Origin: Bacteroidota bacterium
GTDB lineage: Bacteria > Bacteroidota > Ignavibacteria > Kryptoniales > JAKASW01
Assembly: GCA_021789975.1 (NCBI GenBank)
Contig: JAJYIT010000015.1
Location: 1-64,000 of the forward strand
DNA length: 64,000 nucleotides
Direction of reading: 5' to 3'
Positions 24,005-60,029 of the stretch are shown here, one piece after another. Both the position numbers and the translations under genes were made by a program. The notes under the pieces are model-generated. The model saw nothing but the letters and a program-made list of their open reading frames with translations. It was not told the DNA's origin and searched no databases. Positions within the stretch are counted from its first letter, which is position 1, and every line of letters begins with the position of its first letter.

Positions 24005-24033
24005 TTGACATAGAGTACACAATTCGTTATTAT
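24005..24033 (+). promoter_or_regulatory. Strong sigma70-like promoter of the ilv-leu operon
   Basis: TTGACA (24005-24010), a 17-nt spacer and TATTAT (24028-24033) match the housekeeping consensus, and the distance suits initiation near 24040, eight bases before the leader peptide ATG. Confidence 0.7.
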
Positions 24034-24047
24034 GAATTCACAACAAA

Positions 24048-24212
24048 ATGACTGACGATAGTTCAACATACGGTCCTTCGGCTTCGGCGGCGAAAGCGCT
24101 TTCTTTGCCGGATATTGTCAGTCTCGATGTTCTAAGCCTCCTTTCCATTTCCGTCCTTATTCTCCTCCTCCTCCTTAGCGAGGGGAATATCCTACTCGGC
24201 ATTATTAGCTAA
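24048..24212 (+). CDS. Leu/Ile/Val-rich leader peptide of the ilv-leu operon
   Basis: A 54-codon open frame from ATG at 24048 to TAA at 24210. Its second half is rich in branched-chain residues: the last 19 residues are VLILLLLLSEGNILLGIIS, including CTC CTC CTC CTC CTT in a row. It lies just downstream of the promoter and about 190 nt before ilvB. This is the architecture of a transcription-attenuation leader in which ribosome stalling at scarce Leu/Ile/Val codons controls the following stems. The peptide has no other recognisable function and resembles no enzyme. Confidence 0.8.
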   Translation: MTDDSSTYGPSASAAKALSLPDIVSLDVLSLLSISVLILLLLLSEGNILLGIIS

Positions 24213-24311
24213 AACGCCGAAGGTTATTCCCCGAAGCAGCAAGTCTTAAAAAGTTAAATCCATAAAAAGGGAATAACCAAAAGCGTTAAGCTGTGTCGCA
24301 AGACGGCTTAG
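24182..24311 (+). promoter_or_regulatory. Branched-chain amino-acid attenuator (alternative stems)
   Basis: Three segments compete. Segment 1, GGGGAATATCC at 24182-24192, lies within the leader-peptide codons. Segment 2, GGTTATTCCCC at 24222-24232, can pair with segment 1 (one mismatch) or with segment 3, GGGAATAACC at 24269-24278 (perfect 10 bp). A fourth stem TTAAGC/GCTTAG with a GCAA loop (24286-24311) follows. Exclusive pairing 1:2 versus 2:3 next to Leu/Ile codons is classical attenuator logic. A clear U-tract is not seen, so the exact output (termination, or access to the ilvB start) is open. Confidence 0.7.
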
Positions 24312-24402
24312 AGGCTTAGGAGTTACTCTTTAACAAGACTGTAAAGCACGAAGTCCCGTTGCAGGGATTGTCGTAATCTGAAATAAATCTATGGAGACTC
24401 TA

Positions 24403-26136
24403 ATGAGCACCAATGAACTGACCGGCGCTGAGATACTGGTAAAATCGTTGATTGAGGAAAATGTCGAGTACATCTTCGGGTATCCCGGGGGTGCGGTGAT
24501 CGGTGTGTATGACGCCATGCACGACATGTCTCACATCCAGCATATTCTCACTAGACACGAACAGGGCGCGGTTCACGCAGCGGAAGGCTATGCGAAAGCA
24601 ACAGGCAAAGTGGGAGTCGTCGTAGTGACATCCGGTCCGGGTGCCACCAATACAGTTACCGGTATTGCAGATGCCTATATGGACTCCGTGCCGATAGTGG
24701 TGTTCACTGGACAGGTGGCAACACATCTGATTGGAAATGATGCGTTTCAGGAAGCGGATATAATCGGGATAACGAGATCAATAACGAAGCATAATTTTCT
24801 GGTGAAGAATGTCGGCGAGCTGGCTTGGACCATAAAGGCCGCCTTCCATATCGCTTCTACAGGAAGGCCCGGACCGGTCGTGGTGGACATGCCGAAGGAT
24901 GTGATGGCTTCGAAGACAACTTTCGTTTACCCAAAAGAAATAAAAATGCGAGGATATCATCCCTTCTATTTCGGTCATATGGGCCAGATAAACAAAGCGG
25001 TAGAGATTATAAACGCATCTCACAAACCTGTGCTCTACGTCGGCGGCGGCGTGGTTAACTCGAATGCGTCTAACGAGCTTGTCAACCTTGCAAAGAAGCT
25101 GAACGCTCCCGTCGCGATGACGCTGATGGGACTCGGCGCCTACCCGGGTGACGATGAACTCTCAATGGGGATGCTCGGAATGCACGGGACATGGTACTCT
25201 AACAAAGCAGTGGATGAATGCGACTGTTTGGTTGCGATCGGCTCGCGATTCGATGACAGGGTGACCGGCAACCCGGCCACTTTTTCCCCGAACTCGAAGA
25301 AGATACATATAGACATCGATCCATCAGCGATCAGCAAGAATGTCAAAGTGGATGTACCGATCGTCGGAGATGTCCGTCACGTGCTGGAGCGATTGACTCC
25401 GCTGGTCCAACCGCTTGATACGAAGGACTGGCTGAAACAGATCGACGGGTGGAAACGAGAACATCCTTTGCGTTACGAGAACGGTCCGGAAATTCGGGCA
25501 CAATATATCATTGAAAAGATCTACGAGTTAACTAAAGGCGAAGCCATCGTCACTTCGGACGTGGGTCAAAACCAGATGTGGACTGCTCAATTTTACAAAT
25601 TCAAGAATCCGCGCTCGAACATTACTTCAGGCGGACTTGGGACCATGGGATTCTCCTTCCCTGCATCGGTGGGCGCAGCCTTCGGCGTAAAGGACAGACC
25701 GGTCTTCAGCATCAACGGCGACGGCGGTATTCAAATGAACATTCAGGAACTGACTACTGCAGTCGGAAACAAACTTCCGATAAAGATTGTAATTCTCGAC
25801 AACGGCTACCTGGGGATGGTGAGACAATGGCAGGATCTCTTTTATAAGAAGCGATATACCCACGTCTCGCTCGGTACAAACCCCGACTTTGCAAAAATCG
25901 CCGAGGCATTCGGAGCTGCCGGCTTTGTCTCCGATAAGGCTGACGATGTAGTCCCGATCCTGAAGAAGGCGTTGAAAATCAATGATCGACCGGTTGTAAT
26001 CGATTTCAGAACTACCGAAGAAGACAATGTTTATCCGATGATCCCCAGCGGAGGAACATTCGCTCAAATCATGGACTATCCAAAATCAGTTGAGGAGATT
26101 CAAATGGCAAAGGCACATTCGGAGGCTGTGAAGTGA
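24403..26136 (+). CDS. ilvB: Acetolactate synthase large subunit
   Basis: TPP enzyme condensing two pyruvates (or pyruvate and 2-oxobutyrate), first common step to Val/Leu and Ile. The ATG at 24403 (MSTNELTGAEILVKSL) has GGAG six bases upstream and is preferred over ATG 24391, whose codons contain that site. Of about 577 residues, YIFGYPGGAVIGVYDAM and ARHEQGA (RHEQGAVHAAEGYA, catalytic Glu about residue 50) form the TPP centre, and NGDGGIQMNIQELTTA plus ILDNGYLGMVRQWQ the Mg-TPP-binding motif. First gene of the operon. Confidence 0.96.
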   Translation: MSTNELTGAEILVKSLIEENVEYIFGYPGGAVIGVYDAMHDMSHIQHILTRHEQGAVHAAEGYAKATGKVGVVVVTSGPGATNTVTGIADAYMDSVPIVVFTGQVATHLIGNDAFQEADIIGITRSITKHNFLVKNVGELAWTIKAAFHIASTGRPGPVVVDMPKDVMASKTTFVYPKEIKMRGYHPFYFGHMGQINKAVEIINASHKPVLYVGGGVVNSNASNELVNLAKKLNAPVAMTLMGLGAYPGDDELSMGMLGMHGTWYSNKAVDECDCLVAIGSRFDDRVTGNPATFSPNSKKIHIDIDPSAISKNVKVDVPIVGDVRHVLERLTPLVQPLDTKDWLKQIDGWKREHPLRYENGPEIRAQYIIEKIYELTKGEAIVTSDVGQNQMWTAQFYKFKNPRSNITSGGLGTMGFSFPASVGAAFGVKDRPVFSINGDGGIQMNIQELTTAVGNKLPIKIVILDNGYLGMVRQWQDLFYKKRYTHVSLGTNPDFAKIAEAFGAAGFVSDKADDVVPILKKALKINDRPVVIDFRTTEEDNVYPMIPSGGTFAQIMDYPKSVEEIQMAKAHSEAVK

Positions 26137-26624
26137 AGAAACATACGATCTCAATTTCTGTAGAAAACAAGTTCGGCGCACTCAACAGAATTGTCGGTCT
26201 CTTCAGCGCCCGCGGATACAACATCGACAGTATTTCCGTCGGTACAAGTGAAGACGATACCGTCGCCAGAGTAACCATAGTCTCAAAAGGAGATGACGAT
26301 GTTATTGAGCAAATAATCAAGCAGCTCAACAAACTCATTGATGTAACTAAAGTCGTCGATTTGACTTATGAGAGTTACGTGGAACGGGAGCTTGTCCTCG
26401 TGAAAGTGGCAGCAAACCGAAATTCAAGGACTGAGATTATGCAGATTTCCGAAATCTTCCGGTCGAAAGTCATCGATATCAGCCCCCGTTCAGTTACCAT
26501 AGAAGCTACCGGCAGCGAACAAAAAGTCAGCGCGCTCGTGAAGATGCTCGAGCCGTTCGGGATCAAGGAAATCGCGAGAACCGGCCGTGTGGCCTTGAAG
26601 CGTGAATTCGAAGGGGCAGTTTAG
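26133..26624 (+). CDS. ilvN: Acetolactate synthase regulatory subunit
   Basis: The 163-residue small subunit activates IlvB and confers valine feedback. Residues 1-75 form the ACT domain (TISISVENKFGALNRIVGLFSARGYNIDSISVG); the C-terminal domain ends with EIARTGRVALKREF, as usual. It starts at GTG overlapping the ilvB stop, with GGAGG at proper spacing. Confidence 0.95.
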   Translation: MKKHTISISVENKFGALNRIVGLFSARGYNIDSISVGTSEDDTVARVTIVSKGDDDVIEQIIKQLNKLIDVTKVVDLTYESYVERELVLVKVAANRNSRTEIMQISEIFRSKVIDISPRSVTIEATGSEQKVSALVKMLEPFGIKEIARTGRVALKREFEGAV

Positions 26625-26697: not shown

Positions 26698-27753
26698 ATG
26701 GCAAAGATCGATTTTGGCGGGACGATTGAAAATATTGTGACGCGGGAGGAGTTCCCGATGTCGAAAGCAAAAGAAGTGTTGAAAAATGAAGTCATTGCCG
26801 TCATCGGCTATGGTGTTCAGGGTCCCGCACAATCCTTGAACATGCGCGACAACGGATTCAATGTGATCGTCGGTCAGCGTAGCGAAACTAAAGATGGTTG
26901 GAACAGGGCTGTTAAAGACGGCTGGATTCCCGGGAAAACGTTGTTCTCAGTCGAGGAGGCTGCACAAAAAGGAACCATTATTCAATACCTGGTTTCAGAT
27001 TCTGCACAGAGGGCGATCTGGCCGAAAGTGAAACCGTATCTCACGAAGGGTAAAGCACTTTATTTTTCGCACGGGTTTTCGATTACATACAAAGACCAAA
27101 CCGGAGTTGTTCCACCGCCGGATATTGATGTAATAATGGTTGCTCCAAAAGGATCAGGAACGAGCGTGCGCCGCAATTACCTGGCAGGATCTGGCATCAA
27201 TTCAAGCTACGCAGTTTTCCAGGATGCAACAGGGAAAGCGACCGAGCGCACTCTGGCAGTGGGGATTGCGATCGGCTCCGGTTATCTATTCCCGACTACC
27301 TTCAAGCAAGAGGTCTACAGCGATCTCACAGGTGAGCGCGGAGTTTTGATGGGAGCACTTGCCGGCATAATGTCCGCTCAATATGAAACCCTGCGGGAAC
27401 ATGGTCACACTCCAAGCGAGGCATTCAATGAAACAGTCGAAGAATTGACACAGAGTCTGATACGCCTGGTAGATGAGAACGGCATGGATTGGATGTACGC
27501 AAATTGCAGCACGACCGCTCAGCGCGGAGCACTGGACTGGCTTCCGAAATTCAAGGCGGCTGTCGCACCGGTGTTCAAGCAATTATATGAGTCTGTTGCA
27601 AGCGGCGCGGAGACCAAAAGGGTTCTGGATTCGACCAGCGGCCCGGACTACAGGGACTCCTTGAACAAAGAGTTGAAGAAAATGCGCGATTCCGAAATGT
27701 GGGCGGCGGGTGCTGCTGTTCGTTCACTCCGACCGCAGAATTGGAAAAACTAA
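26698..27753 (+). CDS. ilvC: Ketol-acid reductoisomerase
   Basis: Converts acetohydroxyacids to dihydroxyacids with NAD(P)H and Mg. The 351 residues begin with the Rossmann segment VIAVIGYGVQGPAQSLNMRDNG; VGQRSE after the second strand is the cofactor-specificity loop, and VAPKGSG, SDLTGERGVLMG and ETVEELTQSL carry metal and substrate residues. It lacks the duplicated C-terminal domain of class II enzymes. ilvD, the next enzyme, is not in this operon or the window. Confidence 0.95.
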   Translation: MAKIDFGGTIENIVTREEFPMSKAKEVLKNEVIAVIGYGVQGPAQSLNMRDNGFNVIVGQRSETKDGWNRAVKDGWIPGKTLFSVEEAAQKGTIIQYLVSDSAQRAIWPKVKPYLTKGKALYFSHGFSITYKDQTGVVPPPDIDVIMVAPKGSGTSVRRNYLAGSGINSSYAVFQDATGKATERTLAVGIAIGSGYLFPTTFKQEVYSDLTGERGVLMGALAGIMSAQYETLREHGHTPSEAFNETVEELTQSLIRLVDENGMDWMYANCSTTAQRGALDWLPKFKAAVAPVFKQLYESVASGAETKRVLDSTSGPDYRDSLNKELKKMRDSEMWAAGAAVRSLRPQNWKN

Positions 27754-27824: not shown

Positions 27825-29432
27825 ATGGAGCACATCTACATTTATGACACGACTCTTCGCGACGGCACACAAGGCGAAGAGATCTCTTTCAGCGTCGAGG
27901 ACAAAATCAAAATAGCTTTGCGACTCGACGCTTTCGGAGTGAACTATATCGAAGGCGGATGGCCGGGTTCTAATCCAAAGGATATGGAGTTCTTCGAGAG
28001 AATGAAGAGCGTGCCGCTGAAAAGGTCGAGGCTCGCCGCTTTCGGCAGTACATGCCGCGCTTCATCAACTCCGGAAACCGATGACAACGTTAACCAACTG
28101 TTGCGAGCTGATACGCCAGCAGTCACGATATTCGGCAAGTCCTGGAATTTGCATGTCGTAGAGGCACTCGGCACGACGCTCGAAAGAAACATCGAGATAA
28201 TTTGCAGCACGGTAAAGTATTTGAAGGCAAATCACAAAGAAGTTATCTACGATGCCGAGCACTTCTTCGATGGATACAAATCCGATCCATCATACGCGGT
28301 TAAGACTATCCAGGCAGCAGAGGCAGGCGGCGCCGATATTGTCGTGTTGTGCGATACGAACGGCGGGAGCATGCCGTACGAGATAGAGACAATTGTAAAA
28401 TCCGCTGCGGAGGCGATCAAAATACCGATTGGAATTCATGCTCACAACGATGCGGAGCTGGCAGTGGCAAACTCGCTGGCCGCCGTAAGAGCCGGTGCAG
28501 TTCACGTACAGGGAACGATAAACGGATTCGGTGAACGATGCGGCAACGCCAATCTGTGTTCGATTATCCCAAACCTGCAGATCAAAATGGGATTTAGTGC
28601 CGTCGCGCCTGAAAGGCTGAGTGCATTGACCGAGCTTTCGAGATTCGTGAGTGAAGTCGCAAATTTGCAGCCGCGCAAGAATCTACCATACGTCGGCCAG
28701 AGCGCCTTCGCCCACAAAGGCGGGATCCATGTAAGCGCCGTTATGAAATCAGCACGCACTTATGAGCACATCGAACCGCAGGTAGTCGGCAACTCACGGC
28801 GCGTTTTGGTGAGCGATCTGTCAGGAAAGAGTAATGTGCTTTACAAGGCGCAAGAACTCGGAATCAAGATCGCCGGCAACAACGGACAGGCAAGCTCGAT
28901 CGTGGGCCAGCTAAAGGCACTGGAGAACGAAGGATATGTCTTCGAAGACGCGGACGCTTCACTCGAGATTCTCATTCGGAAAGAAACCGGTGAGGTGAAA
29001 ATGCCTTTCGAACTCGAATCTTTGCACATAATCATCGAAAAAGATGCGAACGACGGTATTTCACGAACAGTTGCCACTATAAAGCTAAGAGTTGGAGACA
29101 AGATCGAAATGACTGCGTCGGAAGGCAACGGACCAGTGAATGCACTTGACAATGCACTTCGCAAGGCGCTTCTGCAATTCTATCCACAGCTTGCCGAGAC
29201 GAAATTATCGGACTACAAAGTTCGTGTCGTTGATGGTGGCGATGGAACCGCGGCAAAAGTGAGAGTTTTGATAGAGACCACCGACCAGGATTCCAATTGG
29301 GATACGGTCGGCGTGTCCGAAAACATTATCGAGGCGAGCTGGAAAGCGCTCGTTGATTCGATAGTCTACAAAATGATGAAGGATAATGACAGAAGTAAAA
29401 CAAGCAAAAGACACGTGGAGTTGACAAAATGA
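27825..29432 (+). CDS. cimA: (R)-citramalate synthase
   Basis: Condenses pyruvate and acetyl-CoA to citramalate, the threonine-independent entry to isoleucine. The 535-residue protein has YDTTLRDGTQGEEISFSVEDK at residues 6-26 (citramalate-type TQGE instead of LeuA EQSP), the GIHAHNDAELAVANSL metal site and HKGGIHVSAVMK, plus a C-terminal regulatory LeuA domain (about residues 400-530). Distinguishable from the paralogue leuA downstream by these motifs. Its stop overlaps the small ORF that follows. Confidence 0.92.
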   Translation: MEHIYIYDTTLRDGTQGEEISFSVEDKIKIALRLDAFGVNYIEGGWPGSNPKDMEFFERMKSVPLKRSRLAAFGSTCRASSTPETDDNVNQLLRADTPAVTIFGKSWNLHVVEALGTTLERNIEIICSTVKYLKANHKEVIYDAEHFFDGYKSDPSYAVKTIQAAEAGGADIVVLCDTNGGSMPYEIETIVKSAAEAIKIPIGIHAHNDAELAVANSLAAVRAGAVHVQGTINGFGERCGNANLCSIIPNLQIKMGFSAVAPERLSALTELSRFVSEVANLQPRKNLPYVGQSAFAHKGGIHVSAVMKSARTYEHIEPQVVGNSRRVLVSDLSGKSNVLYKAQELGIKIAGNNGQASSIVGQLKALENEGYVFEDADASLEILIRKETGEVKMPFELESLHIIIEKDANDGISRTVATIKLRVGDKIEMTASEGNGPVNALDNALRKALLQFYPQLAETKLSDYKVRVVDGGDGTAAKVRVLIETTDQDSNWDTVGVSENIIEASWKALVDSIVYKMMKDNDRSKTSKRHVELTK

Positions 29433-29686: not shown

Positions 29687-31246
29687 ATGAAGGAGAACAT
29701 ATATATTTTCGACACCACGCTGCGCGACGGAGAACAGTCACCGGGATGCAGCATGAACCCGAAGGAAAAGGTCAAGATGGCACGGCAGCTCGAGGCACTC
29801 AACGTCGATGTCATCGAAGCAGGATTCCCGATCGCATCTGAAGGTGATTTCGAAGCTGTCAGGGAAATCGCACGCTCGGTGAAAGGCCCCACCATTGCCG
29901 GACTCTCCCGCGCTACGCCGGTTGATATTGATCGCGCTTACGAGGCTCTCCAATACGCTTCCAAGGCAAGAATACATACGTTCATTGCCACCAGCGACAT
30001 CCATCTGAAGTACAAATTAAAGAAGTCCCGTGAGGAAGTGCTTGAGCAATCCATCAAGGCGGTTGAACATGCGAAGCGGCTCACCCAGGACGTCGAGTTC
30101 AGCTGTGAAGATGCGAGCAGGACAGACATCGACTACCTTTGCAGGGTAATTGAGGCCGTCATTGCGGCAGGTGCGACCGTTGTCAACCTCCCGGACACCG
30201 TAGGTTATGCAATACCTTCAGAGTATGGAGACCTCATCAAGACGATCCGCGAACGCGTCAAGAACATCGGCAACACGGTGCTTAGTGTTCACTGCCATAA
30301 TGACCTCGGGTTGGCAGTGGCAAATTCCATCGCTGCAGTCATGAACGGCGCCCGCCAGGTAGAATGCACGATCAACGGAATAGGCGAACGTGCAGGCAAT
30401 GCTTCGCTTGAAGAGTTTGTGATGGCGCTGCGCACCAGACCCGACTCACTTCCCTTCCAAACCGGCGTGATTGCAGAAGAGATATATAAATCAAGCAGAC
30501 TTCTCTCCAGCCTTACCGGCATGATGGTACAGCGCAACAAGGCGATCGTTGGAGCCAACGCATTCTCCCACGAGGCAGGCATCCATCAGGACGGAATAAT
30601 CAAGAGTCGAATGACCTATGAGATAATGACGCCTGAATCTGTCGGGATAAAACATTCCACGCTGGTTCTCGGAAAACATTCCGGCAGGCATGCGCTCAAG
30701 AAGAGATTCGAAGAACTCGGATACTCACTCTCTACTGAAGAGCTTGACAATGTCTACCGCGAATTCACCGGACTGGCAGACAAGAAGAAAGAGATACTTG
30801 ACGACGACCTTGTCGCAATATTGAACAACGAAGTTGAGAAAGACGAATTCAGTTACGTGCTCGCAAGCCTCCAGGTTATGACTGGCACTGGAGTGAGATC
30901 CACCGCCGTGCTTGAATTATCCGACGGGCGACAGAGCCACGTGGATTCTGCGACCGGCGATGGGCCAGTAGATGCGGCATACAAAGCGATTGAGAGAATT
31001 ACGAAGATGAACGGCCAGCTGGTTGATTACACCATCAGCTCCGTGACGTGGGGCGGCGATGCAGTTGGCGAGGTCTTCGTGAAAGTAATCTTCAACGATG
31101 TTGTCTTTACCGGACATGCCGCGAGCACAGACATAGTTACCGGGAGCGTCGACGCATACCTGCAAGCGGTCAATCGCGCCCTTTCAGCAAGAGCGGCAAA
31201 ATCGGCAGATGATGAGATTGTAAGAAACCAGGCAAATGCAGTATAG
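29687..31246 (+). CDS. leuA: 2-Isopropylmalate synthase
   Basis: First committed step of leucine synthesis from 2-oxoisovalerate and acetyl-CoA. The 519-residue length is standard. [21 protein letters not shown] (metal Asp, substrate Arg) is LeuA-type, [18 protein letters not shown] carries the metal histidines, [12 protein letters not shown] the acetyl-CoA loop, and [15 protein letters not shown] begins the C-terminal allosteric domain. A GGAAGGAG site precedes the ATG. Confidence 0.96.
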
Positions 31247-31424: not shown

Positions 31425-32723
31425 ATGTCAATGACAATAACAGAGAAAATTCTTGCCGGTCACTCGGGCAGGGACAAAGTCACTCCGGGCGAAAACGTTT
31501 GGGTCGACGTCGATATCCTGATGACCCATGACGTCACCGGCCCAGGCACAATTTCAATTTTCAAGGAAGAATTCGGCAAAGAAGCAAAGGTGTGGGACCG
31601 CGACAAAGTTGTGGTGATACCCGATCATTACATCTTCACTGAAGACCAGCATGCAAAGCGAAACGTCGTCTTTCTGCGAGACTTCGTAAAGGATCAGAGG
31701 ATCGATAACTTCTATGACGTCGGCACATCCGATTACAAAGGTGTGTGCCATGTTGCACTACCCGAAGAAGGATACACACGGCCAGGAGAAGTCTTGTTCG
31801 GGACCGATTCGCATACATGCACTGCGGGCGCCTTCGGAGAGTTCGCAACGGGGATCGGGAACACCGATGCCGCCTTCATTCTCGGAACCGGGAAACTCTG
31901 GGTTAAAGTGCCGCAAACCATGCGGTTCGTCTTCGACGGCGAATTGCCGGAATATCTGATGGCGAAAGATCTTATCCTCCGAATTATCGGTGACATCGGA
32001 GTAGACGGTGCGTCTTATGCCGCAATGGAATTTGCGGGAGATGCCGTTCACGGTTTGAACATCGAGGAGCGGATGACACTGTGCAATATGGTCATAGAGG
32101 CCGGCGGAAAGAACGGAGTCATCGCGCCGGACCAGACCACCATCGACTTTGTGAAGAGTCGAAGCGAGAAAAATTTCACCCCGGTTCAAAACGACCCGGA
32201 TGCGAGGTTCGCGCTGGAGAAGAAATTCGACGTGTCGAAAATAACCCCGTTGGTTGCGAAACCTCACTCACCGGAAAATGTCGAAGCAGCTGAAAACCTT
32301 TCCGACGTTATAGTCGACCGGGTTTACATCGGTTCATGCACCGGCGGAAAGTTGACCGACTTCAGAGCTGCTGCACGCGTTCTCGACGGTAGGAAAACCG
32401 CGGTAGATACTTTCATAGTCCCGGCAACAACAGACGTTGCCAGAGGCTTGCGCGAATACAAACTCAACGGAAAGACTCTTCTCCAAATTTTCGAGGAAGC
32501 AGGCTGCAGAATTGGAAACGCAAGCTGCGGAGCATGCCTCGGAGGACCGGACGATACTTTCGGCAGGTTGAATGGCCAGGAGATCTGCCTTTCAACCACC
32601 AATCGTAATTTCCCCGGTCGAATGGGTTCCAAGAAAGCACAGGTCTACCTGGCTTCCCCGCTCACCGCGGCAGCTACTGCCATAACTGGAAAAATTACGG
32701 ACCCACGAAAATATCTTGCTTGA
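31425..32723 (+). CDS. leuC: 3-Isopropylmalate dehydratase large subunit
   Basis: Iron-sulfur isomerase of the leucine pathway. In 432 residues the cluster cysteines are in GSCTGGK (about residue 305) and CGACLGGP (about residues 366-373), and GTDSHTCTAGAFGEFATGIG carries active-site residues. The length fits the compact HacA/LeuC2 type. LeuC and LeuD are encoded consecutively. Confidence 0.94.
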   Translation: MSMTITEKILAGHSGRDKVTPGENVWVDVDILMTHDVTGPGTISIFKEEFGKEAKVWDRDKVVVIPDHYIFTEDQHAKRNVVFLRDFVKDQRIDNFYDVGTSDYKGVCHVALPEEGYTRPGEVLFGTDSHTCTAGAFGEFATGIGNTDAAFILGTGKLWVKVPQTMRFVFDGELPEYLMAKDLILRIIGDIGVDGASYAAMEFAGDAVHGLNIEERMTLCNMVIEAGGKNGVIAPDQTTIDFVKSRSEKNFTPVQNDPDARFALEKKFDVSKITPLVAKPHSPENVEAAENLSDVIVDRVYIGSCTGGKLTDFRAAARVLDGRKTAVDTFIVPATTDVARGLREYKLNGKTLLQIFEEAGCRIGNASCGACLGGPDDTFGRLNGQEICLSTTNRNFPGRMGSKKAQVYLASPLTAAATAITGKITDPRKYLA

Positions 32724-32873: not shown

Positions 32874-33479
32874 ATGCCAGGAAGCAAAATTATTGGAAAA
32901 GTATATGTTGTCGGTGACAATGTCGACACAGACCAAATCATACCCGCGAAGCACCTTGTTTACGACACGCATTCTCCCGAGGAGAGGAAACTCTTCGGTA
33001 AGTATGCGATGAGCGGAGTGCCGGAAGACAGATCAGGACTACCGGAAGGAAGTGTGAAATTCGTAGACGAAGGTAAATACGAGTCCGTCTTCAACATAAT
33101 TGTCGGGGGCAAGAACTTCGGTTGCGGTTCGTCAAGAGAGCACGCGCCGTTGGCACTTCAGGTTGCGGGTGTAGCAGCTGTTGTTGCTCAGACCTACGCT
33201 CGGATATTCTACCGGAATTCTGTAGACGGCGGATTCGTGATGCCGCTTGAATCGGTGGACAATATATTCAAGTCATTCGCCACCGGCGATCAAGTTGAGA
33301 TAGATCTTGATGCAAACAAAATCACGGACATAAGAACTGGAAAATCATTTGGGCTGCGATCACTAGGCGATGCGGCGGACATCATTCACGCAGGCGGACT
33401 CTTTGCCTACGCAAGAAAGATCGGGATGATCAAAGAATCGGACAAGACTGCGACAAAGAAAGTGGGCGCTAATGTTTAA
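32874..33479 (+). CDS. leuD: 3-Isopropylmalate dehydratase small subunit
   Basis: Swivel-domain partner of LeuC. The 201-residue protein has DNVDTDQIIPAKHL (about residues 15-28) and NFGCGSSREHAPLAL (about residues 81-95), the family signatures binding the substrate. Slightly longer than the about 165 residues of compact LeuD, with a basic C-terminal tail. The stop overlaps leuB by eight bases. Confidence 0.95.
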   Translation: MPGSKIIGKVYVVGDNVDTDQIIPAKHLVYDTHSPEERKLFGKYAMSGVPEDRSGLPEGSVKFVDEGKYESVFNIIVGGKNFGCGSSREHAPLALQVAGVAAVVAQTYARIFYRNSVDGGFVMPLESVDNIFKSFATGDQVEIDLDANKITDIRTGKSFGLRSLGDAADIIHAGGLFAYARKIGMIKESDKTATKKVGANV

Positions 33480-34539
33480 GATCGCAGTAATACCGGGCGA
33501 CGGTATAGGCACGGAAGTCACTTCACAGGCGGTTCGAATCCTAAAGAAGGCATCCCGCATATTAAACGAGCAAATCGATTTCGTCGATCTGAAGGCCGGC
33601 GGTATTGCTATAGACACCTTCGGCAAACCACTCCCGGAGCAAACGCTTTCTACCGCTCTGGCGTGCGACGCTGTACTTCTCGGAGCCGTGGGCGGTCCAA
33701 AGTGGGATAATTTGCCGTACGAGTTGAAGCCGGAGCAGGCACTCCTCGGTCTGCGCAAATCTCTGGAGCTGTATGCGAATATCAGACCTGCAATTATGTT
33801 CGATGCTCTGACCGCTTCTTCCTCTTTGAAACCGGATATCGTTAAGGGAATAGACATGGTCGTCGTCAGGGAATTGACGGGTGGAATCTACTTTGGCCGG
33901 CCCGCTGGAATACTTGAGGAAGACGGGATCCGTCGTGGTGTAAACACAATGACGTACTCGGAGCCCGAGATTGAAAGGATCACCCACACGGCATTCAAGC
34001 TGGCAAAATCGAGGAACAAACACGTCACTTCCGTGGATAAGGCAAACATTCTCCATACATCCATGCTATGGCGAGAGATAGTCAACAAAGTTGCGAAGGA
34101 AAATTATTCCGATGTCCGTCTCGACCATATGTACGTCGACAATGCTTCGATGCAGCTGATTCGAAACCCTAAGCAATTCGATGTGATACTAACCGAGAAT
34201 ATGTTCGGAGACATACTGAGCGATGAAGCGTCGATGCTGACAGGCTCGATCGGAATGCTTCCGTCTGCAAGCATTGGCGGCAAGCACGCCCTCTATGAAC
34301 CTGTGCACGGCAGTGCTCCCGATATCGCCGGCAGAGGATTGGCAAACCCCGTCGCAAGTATACTCTCAGCGGCGATGCTGCTTGAATATTCTATCAAACA
34401 GAAAGAGCTTGCGAGAAAGATATTCCAGGCAGCCGAGAAAGTGCTGAACGAAGGTTACAGGACGGCAGACATCGCAACGGATGGCACGACCAGACTAACG
34501 ACCGAGCAGATGGGCGAGAAGATAGAAGCTGCTATCTAA
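33472..34539 (+). CDS. leuB: 3-Isopropylmalate dehydrogenase
   Basis: NAD-dependent oxidative decarboxylase of the leucine pathway. The 355 residues show [16 protein letters not shown] at the N-terminus, the [14 protein letters not shown] loop, [16 protein letters not shown] and the [25 protein letters not shown] signature with metal aspartates, and [20 protein letters not shown]. Last cistron of the operon; ilvD and ilvE are not in the window. Confidence 0.96.
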
Positions 34540-58154: not shown

Positions 58155-60029
58155 TCAATTGACTATTGATATAATGGGCTTAGAGAAGACTTCCCATTTG
58201 TTGTCCTTCGGAATCCACTTCATGTTCACAAATACCTTCCAATCTTTCTCGTCCATGGAAGGCTTGTCTGCCCTGAAGTAGTAGCCGGGCCAGCGAGTCT
58301 CTTCTCTGAACAGTATCGCCCGGACGTGAGCCTCAGCTTGCCACATCCTGTGAATGTTCTCCCAGCAGCGCATCAGCTCATGAAGGTCCTCCGCCGCCAA
58401 CTTCGCAGAGTCTTCCTTCAGGTATTGAAGCAGGTCGAGGCCTTTCTCCAGCAGCGCCTTACTGGTCTTGAATTGCGAAGACACTCCGCCGGCGTATTCG
58501 TCCATGATCTTCTGCAGTCTGAACATGAACATCTTCGGTTTGATGTAATTGGGATTCATTTCAGGATCGGTCGAGGCCTTGCCAAACTGCTCGAACATCT
58601 CAAGCGGTTTCAGGATTTCGGCCTTCAAGGCATCGATCTGACGCTGATCATACTTTCGCGAATCCGGATGATCCATGATGTAGTCGATCGCAGCTTTTGC
58701 AGCTATTCTTCCCTCGGCATGGGAGCCGGAAGAGAATTTGTGGCTCGATGCACCGGATGCGTCACCGGCGCAGAAGATCCCCGGAACAGTAGACATATTT
58801 GCGTAGCCCCAGAAGTATTCCTGGGGTGCCAGATCCTTCGGACCGCTGACCCACGCACCCGAGGCACCGGAGTGTGACCCGATGAAATAAGGCTCGGCGG
58901 CGGCGATCTCTGATGGTTTTTCTTCGGGAGCAGTGTTGGTACCCGCCCAGAGAATGGCCTGTGAAATGGTCATATCAAGAAAGTCTTCCCAGGCTTCACC
59001 TTCCAGCTCTTTTATTTTTTTCTTCGCGGCCTTCTCGTCACCTGACTCCGACGCGATCTTGTTGATTGCTTCTTCGGTCCGCATGTATATCGGACCTTTG
59101 CCGTCCATGACGTCGAGCATCATAAGCCAATTGCGCAGGTTTGCGGGAACAGGTTTCACTTTTCCATACGGCACCCATTTCTCAAGCTCGTCTCTTCTCT
59201 CTGCCATATAGTCGCCGCCCATCCCGTTCGTAGCTCTCGACTTGAAGAGCAGGAACCAGGCACCGACAGGACCGTACGCGTCTTTGAAACGAACTGGAAT
59301 AAACCGCACCTCCTGGCATGTCATTTCTGCGCCGGCTTTCAAAGTGAAGTAAGCGCTCGACCCCGAATTCCATGGCGGATACCATGCTCGCCCCAGACCT
59401 TCCCCCGAAGATCTCGGTTTGAACACGTGTACCGCCCCGCCCATGGCGACCAGGACGGCCTTCGCTTTGAAGATATAGAATTTCTCCTCGCGCACACTGA
59501 ATCCGACTGCACCTACGCATACATCGCCATCCATCAGAGGTCCGACGATGAAAATTCTTTCGTAAATGTTCTCGGCGCCCAGTGCGTTCTTTGCTGCCTC
59601 CGCGACCACGACCTTGTACGACTCGCCGTTGATCATCAACTGCCATCTTCCCTCGTGGACATAATTACCTTCTGCGTCTTTCCATATCGGCAGTCCCCAC
59701 TTTTCGAACAAATGGACCGTTGAATCAACATGTCTTGCTATGTTGTAAACCAAATCCTCGCGCGTAATTCCCATCAGATCGCTGCGGACGTATTTCACAT
59801 AATCCTCGACGGTATTTTTTCCGTCCTTGATACCGACATACTGGTTGATGGCCGAGAGTCCCATTGCAACCGCACCGCTTCTATCGACTGCGGCTTTGTC
59901 CACAAGCGTGACTTTAAGACCATGTTGTTTTGCCCAGTAGGCGGCTTCGACTGCTGCACCGCAAGCGGCCATTCCGCCGCCAACGATCAGTAGATCAGTC
60001 TCCACTACTTCTGTTTTCATGTCAGCCAT
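58155..60029 (-). CDS. aprA: Adenylylsulfate reductase subunit alpha
   Basis: FAD subunit of dissimilatory APS reductase, converting APS to sulfite and AMP or the reverse. The 624 residues begin with the dinucleotide motif DLLIVGGGMAACGAAVEAAYW (about 13-33), followed by VDRSGAVAMGLSAINQYVG and the FAD/substrate segment CAGDASGASSHKFSSGSHAEGR near the C-terminal third. Slightly shorter than the about 640-660 residues of Desulfovibrio and Archaeoglobus. Coupled 16 nt after aprB. Confidence 0.95.
   Translation of the reverse strand: MADMKTEVVETDLLIVGGGMAACGAAVEAAYWAKQHGLKVTLVDKAAVDRSGAVAMGLSAINQYVGIKDGKNTVEDYVKYVRSDLMGITREDLVYNIARHVDSTVHLFEKWGLPIWKDAEGNYVHEGRWQLMINGESYKVVVAEAAKNALGAENIYERIFIVGPLMDGDVCVGAVGFSVREEKFYIFKAKAVLVAMGGAVHVFKPRSSGEGLGRAWYPPWNSGSSAYFTLKAGAEMTCQEVRFIPVRFKDAYGPVGAWFLLFKSRATNGMGGDYMAERRDELEKWVPYGKVKPVPANLRNWLMMLDVMDGKGPIYMRTEEAINKIASESGDEKAAKKKIKELEGEAWEDFLDMTISQAILWAGTNTAPEEKPSEIAAAEPYFIGSHSGASGAWVSGPKDLAPQEYFWGYANMSTVPGIFCAGDASGASSHKFSSGSHAEGRIAAKAAIDYIMDHPDSRKYDQRQIDALKAEILKPLEMFEQFGKASTDPEMNPNYIKPKMFMFRLQKIMDEYAGGVSSQFKTSKALLEKGLDLLQYLKEDSAKLAAEDLHELMRCWENIHRMWQAEAHVRAILFREETRWPGYYFRADKPSMDEKDWKVFVNMKWIPKDNKWEVFSKPIISIVN

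Follow-up and report, generated by a model that had tools for sequence, protein, structure and literature searches.

A conserved leucine-rich leader ORF with competing RNA helices upstream of the ilvB-to-leuB genes in a Bacteroidota genome

Proteobacteria and Actinobacteria supply the best-known cases of leader-peptide attenuation. In E. coli, trpL and leuL each combine a leader ORF carrying control codons with competing helices, and the element described here resembles them in both respects. As late as 2010, the authors of a Firmicutes case knew leader-peptide systems only from Proteobacteria and Actinobacteria before their own (PMC2965389). The actinobacterial ilvB and leuA leaders are similar in that a leader peptide with a run of Leu codons precedes branched-chain amino acid genes (PMC1262725); some actinobacterial leaders (cys) are also devoid of obvious terminators, and Rho was suggested to act there (PMC1262725). 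The LEU element of Actinobacteria has its Leu codons paired with the leuA Shine-Dalgarno sequence (PMC1262725), whereas here the predicted partner of the Leu codons is a segment of the leader ORF itself (segment 1, see below); the predicted probability that the ilvB Shine-Dalgarno is paired with the Leu run is 0–0.26 in 11 genomes, and pairing of the LEU-element type was thus not found. Within the same broad phylum, hints of leader-peptide attenuation ahead of amino-acid operons have been mentioned for Flavobacterium psychrophilum, in passages that name no sequence or operon (PMC9723704). A search of the open-access literature found no published description of the present element.

The element lies on the forward strand of the window, by which we mean the whole stretch of 64,000 nucleotides that was analysed. 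A promoter, TTGACA-17-TATTAT (24005–24033), has its −35 hexamer TTGACA at 24005–24010 and, after a 17-nt spacer, its −10 hexamer TATTAT at 24028–24033; it is conserved in same-genus genomes. The start codon of a 54-codon leader ORF (24048–24212, forward strand), conserved in 12 same-genus loci, follows 14 nt 3′ of the −10 hexamer. An earlier note on this DNA had described a near-consensus promoter followed within 15 nt by a 54-codon peptide, which agrees with the 11 of 12 consensus matches and the 14-nt gap. Its claim of five consecutive Leu codons and a Leu/Ile/Val-rich tail is likewise borne out: the control codons CTC CTC CTC CTC CTT (segment 0) occupy 24162–24176, and the tail of the ORF reads VLILLLLLSEGNILLGIIS, being rich in Leu and Ile. 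The leader also is, as had been remarked, much longer than proteobacterial leaders (54 codons versus 14 in trpL and 28 in leuL of E. coli), and 45–66 codons are usual in the phylum, where most leaders fall in this range across divergent lineages and far exceed the E. coli trp and leu leaders. Stalling at rare codons was considered and rejected, since among the Leu codons of the operon CTC is used most often (0.29). The leader ORF has no match to Pfam or NCBIfam models, and Rfam covariance models, at relaxed and gathering thresholds, gave no match in the region, the whole window or 20 related loci. When other copies were sought in the genome, the single strong match was the window locus itself; no leaders were seen ahead of hisG, trpE and ilvD in the same genome.

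Three forward-strand segments, lying in and after the ORF, can pair in alternative ways. Segment 1 (GGGGAATATCCTACTCGGC, 24182–24200) lies within the leader codons and contains the Leu codons at 24192–24197; segment 2 (GCCGAAGGTTATTCCCC, 24216–24232) begins 4 nt after the leader stop codon; segment 3 (GGGAATAACC followed by AAAAGC, 24269–24284) is separated from it by an A-rich, G-poor linker (24233–24268), which forms the loop of helix 2:3. In helix 2:3, GGTTATTCCC (24222–24231) pairs with GGGAATAACC (24269–24278) over a perfect 10 bp. In helix 1:2, GGGGAATATCC (24182–24192) pairs with GGTTATTCCCC (24222–24232) with one U·U mismatch, and TCGGC/GCCGA extends the helix to a total of 16 pairs. 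Both alternatives, including the single mismatch in 1:2 and the perfect 10 bp of 2:3, had been proposed in the earlier note and were confirmed. The Leu codons of segment 0 can in addition pair with the 5′ part of segment 1 (CTCCTC/GAGGGG), a 0:1 hairpin predicted in most members of the genus; the predicted state combining 0:1 with 2:3 and the state with 1:2 differ by no more than a few kcal/mol. A further predicted hairpin, 3:4 (24277–24320), starts in the 3′ end of segment 3 and has no U-tract; its minimum free energy in the window is −15.3 kcal/mol (z −2.2; genus mean z −1.0). A second small hairpin, AGTCCC/GGGATT (24352–24369), precedes ilvB, and the region ahead of ilvB has a mean z of −1.5 in the genus.

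Downstream, eight co-directional genes on the forward strand, named by NCBIfam models, jointly cover isoleucine, valine and leucine synthesis. They encode the acetolactate synthase large subunit (ilvB, 24403–26136; TIGR00118, 809.7 bits) and small subunit (ilvN/ilvH, 26133–26624; TIGR00119), ketol-acid reductoisomerase (ilvC, 26698–27753; TIGR00465), citramalate synthase (cimA, 27825–29432; TIGR00977), 2-isopropylmalate synthase (leuA, 29687–31246; TIGR00973), members of the isopropylmalate dehydratase large (leuC, 31425–32723; TIGR01343/TIGR02086) and small subunit families (leuD, 32874–33479; TIGR02087), and 3-isopropylmalate dehydrogenase (leuB, 33472–34539; TIGR00169). The ilvB Shine-Dalgarno sequence GGAG (24393–24396) is conserved upstream of the residues MSTNE. 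From gene order and shared strand we infer that ilvB-ilvN-ilvC-cimA-leuA-leuC-leuD-leuB form one transcript under control of the leader.

Within the genus, ten other genomes carry a complete ilvB preceded by this leader, one more (G009) carries the leader, and 12 loci with a readable leader were compared. The tail and segments 1–3 are kept in all 12. The Leu run, segment 1, the stop codon and segments 2 and 3 are nearly invariant in the alignment, whereas the linker and all sequence 3′ of segment 3 drift; segment 2 is identical throughout save for one inserted C, and the Leu run counts five codons in the window species and four in other members of the genus. Over the final 18 leader codons, synonymous codon identity reaches 85%, versus 44% in ilvB of the same genomes, which indicates that the nucleotide sequence of the leader tail is itself constrained. 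The sole freely varying codon position, the third base of a CTN codon (24194), sits in the bulge of helix 1:2, and 99% of the cells of this helix are paired in the 12 sequences. In a sister family of the same order (f2, loci L017–L023), ilvB lies in another gene context and has no such leader directly upstream.

Beyond the genus, we scanned 60 ilvB upstream regions of the phylum and, for comparison, 77 ilvB loci from a general genome collection for a leader with a Leu/Ile/Val-rich tail followed by an inverted repeat within 16 nt. This strict scan matched 36 of the 60 phylum loci versus 5 of the 77 from elsewhere. The five outside matches mostly resemble chance, and therefore a few of the 36 may be chance matches too; conversely, some lineages of the phylum with a clear leader miss the strict scan. 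A scan of the class with a single fixed motif gave matches in the genus and a related genus, plus a single one in another family, and nowhere else. Where ilvD is the first gene of the operon, the leader is placed before ilvD. One lineage that has the element is that of L033, a Rhodothermus MAG. Across 36 representative loci, seven of them from the window's genus, Leu, Ile and Val make up 68% of the last 17 leader codons versus 29% of the rest, and the linker has a mean composition of A 0.40, C 0.22 and G 0.14.

The pairings themselves are also maintained. The earlier note had pointed to the Leu-rich tail and the stems as features to look for in relatives; both are kept in the genus, and helix 2:3 covaries across the phylum. 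Among 28 phylum sequences aligned in register, all 11 pairs of 2:3 show two-sided changes, with 44 two-sided cells versus 12.3 in shuffles, a value reached by none of 500 shuffles. Because the register was set by each sequence's own best helix, the percentage of paired cells is biased upward; this bias is no explanation for compensatory changes at fixed positions of the helix. For helix 1:2, segment 2 pairs better with the leader codons of its own locus (mean −13.2 kcal/mol) than with those of other loci (−9.4 kcal/mol; 0 of 2,000 permutations), and for helix 3:4 the corresponding phylum permutation test lends weak support (17 of 2,000 permutations). Comparison of related sequences thus establishes a conserved leader ORF with a Leu/Ile-rich tail, together with the predicted, mutually exclusive helices 1:2 and 2:3; the ORF carries codons for the amino acid that would be regulated and is predicted to be translated.

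In some loci a GTATATCTG-like element recurs shortly after segment 3, ahead of the first gene's start (L134, L135, L139, L140 and L142 of family f10; L166–L168 and L172 of family f43). It may represent the 5′ arm of a hairpin beside the Shine-Dalgarno sequence or an internal promoter. As an internal promoter after segment 3, GTATATCTG was rejected on its spacing from TTGACC, which is merely 13–14 nt. Bacteroidota-type promoters follow the consensus TTG-N16–18-TAnnTTTG, and by this consensus the element may be read as a promoter of that type.

To relate the helices to translation, a ribosome was positioned on every codon in turn and the RNA 3′ of it was folded in transcripts ending at segment 3, assuming footprints of 13 or 16 nt; equilibrium folding of this kind is blind to kinetics. 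Folding with the downstream arm or terminator included was discarded as an invalid test, since trpL and leuL then always fold the terminator. The E. coli trpL control reproduces its known behaviour, the antiterminator having a probability of 0.92 at the Trp codons and of 0.40 or 0.00 at the stop codon (13 or 16 nt). For the genus, 2:3 has a predicted probability of about 0.99 once the ribosome is on or past the last Leu codon and of 0.82 or 0.49 at the stop codon; for other phylum loci the values are 0.98 in the tail and 0.71 or 0.32 at the stop codon (13 or 16 nt each). Like trpL, the locus is thus predicted to favour the antiterminator-like helix at control codons and to weaken it at the stop codon, where in this genus a 13-nt footprint would block 2:3 in part only. 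While the ribosome occupies the first codons of the Leu run (−51 to −42 relative to the stop codon), by contrast, the genus probability of 2:3 drops to 0.3–0.4 and that of 1:2 is predicted at about 0.7, because this position leaves segment 1 available to segment 2; a stalled ribosome would cover segment 1 from the final one or two Leu-run codons or from CTA-CTC, and would leave it uncovered at the first three codons of the run. In these predictions the textbook attenuation geometry described in the earlier note is seen in the formation of 2:3 with a ribosome in the tail and its weakening at the stop codon, and not throughout, because a ribosome stalled early in the Leu run would favour 1:2.

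Given that related switches recur across the same phylum, the leucine-rich leader with its competing pairings is very probably a real amino-acid sensor. We think it probable, with moderate confidence, that this sensor is a ribosome-mediated attenuator of the ilvB-to-leuB operon with non-canonical, perhaps Rho-assisted, termination. Such an attenuator would sense charged leucine tRNA (and isoleucine). Under scarcity of Leu-tRNA, the ribosome would pause in the tail, either at the last codons of the Leu run or at CTA-CTC inside segment 1, and by covering segment 1 would allow 2:3 to form and transcription to continue. With plentiful leucine it would proceed to the stop codon, 4 nt before segment 2 and 9 nt before the 2:3 core, where it would hinder 2:3 and leave segment 3 free for 3:4; after release of the ribosome, 1:2 would keep segment 2 away. 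Transcription would then most likely end before ilvB, by a hairpin without a U-tract or by Rho, this being the least certain step. The A-rich, G-poor linker would suit Rho loading, and an unstructured loop would need the same composition.

For the output step there is an alternative, namely that the same sensor acts on translation and an alternative structure 3′ of segment 3 keeps ribosomes from entering the first gene, without ending transcription. No U-tract terminator was found on the forward strand of the leader region, as the earlier note had remarked, and absence is usual in the phylum: terminator-like sites before the first gene are lacking in 31 of the 36 representative loci, including the present one, and present in five, as would be expected of a translational output. 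Such an output is also easier to imagine in several other lineages, where the first gene begins 15–26 nt past segment 3 and hairpin 3:4, judged by eye, adjoins the start codon. In the window's genus, however, ilvB starts about 125 nt 3′ of segment 3, and as the ribosome moves from the Leu run to the stop codon the predicted exposure of its Shine-Dalgarno sequence (0.41–0.54) and AUG (0.55–0.60) is nearly flat. This near-independence of predicted ilvB start exposure from the position of the ribosome argues for a transcriptional output, and the earlier suggestion that the leader controls access to ilvB finds no support in this genus. The missing U-tract is moreover compatible with termination, because of the 20 operon ends that mechanical rules define in the window (positions 1–64000) only one has a canonical hairpin with U-tract (after 58155–60029, minus strand), and because rho is present in the genome. 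Two rho-like genes were seen in this genome (G000), a full TIGR00767 match (C37:102244–103545, 679.9 bits) and a shorter one below the cut-off (C51:907–1956, 408.8 bits). On balance we regard a translational output as unlikely, though less so than the readings that follow.

The logic of the switch could also be inverted, with 0:1 as the default and 2:3 as the OFF state, so that a stall at the start of the Leu run would open 0:1 and the resulting 1:2 would break 2:3 and turn the operon ON. The prediction of 0:1 in most of the genus, the small energy difference between the two overall states and the predicted predominance of 1:2 with a ribosome at the first Leu codons all suit this arrangement; yet 0:1 is invariant and hence has no covariation support, Leu/Ile/Val codons in other lineages continue as far as the stop codon, at positions where stalling favours 2:3, and the long-looped 2:3 does not resemble a terminator. 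On the strength of ribosome-position folding, the textbook logic is favoured, and the inverted logic is an improbable but possible one for this genus. It is very improbable that a regulatory protein or some other factor binds the RNA while the ORF is incidental, as was suggested for the LEU element of Actinobacteria (PMC1262725): a GGTCAATCCC/GGGATTGACC-like sequence is indeed kept across distant lineages beyond the need for pairing, but the ORF, its Leu/Ile/Val codons and the short spacing from stop codon to segment 2 are kept as well while the peptide sequence changes. Least of all do we expect the ORF to encode a small membrane protein co-transcribed with the operon, a reading prompted by the resemblance of the hydrophobic tail to a transmembrane helix and opposed by the strong constraint on synonymous sites in the tail, by the lack of any family match and by the persistence of RNA pairing across families whose tail sequences differ.

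Returning to the favoured attenuator, its proposed action is like that of a classical transcription attenuator up to the terminator step, and it is not classed as one because an intrinsic terminator, a defining feature, is absent. Unlike proteobacterial attenuators, the element has no hairpin followed by a U-tract, has the extra 0:1 pairing of its Leu codons and has its start codon near the promoter. We give even chances to a broader proposal, that leader-peptide attenuators of branched-chain amino acid operons form a class spread over several classes of the phylum, with leaders of 45–66 codons, a conserved 2:3 helix and no intrinsic terminators, acting, according to lineage, through Rho or translation initiation. 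The element escapes the models of Rfam, Pfam and NCBIfam and is therefore a ready target for annotation. A covarying and widespread version of leader-peptide control, in a phylum far from Proteobacteria and Actinobacteria and in a genome with few canonical terminators, would let one ask how ribosome stalling is read without a U-tract.
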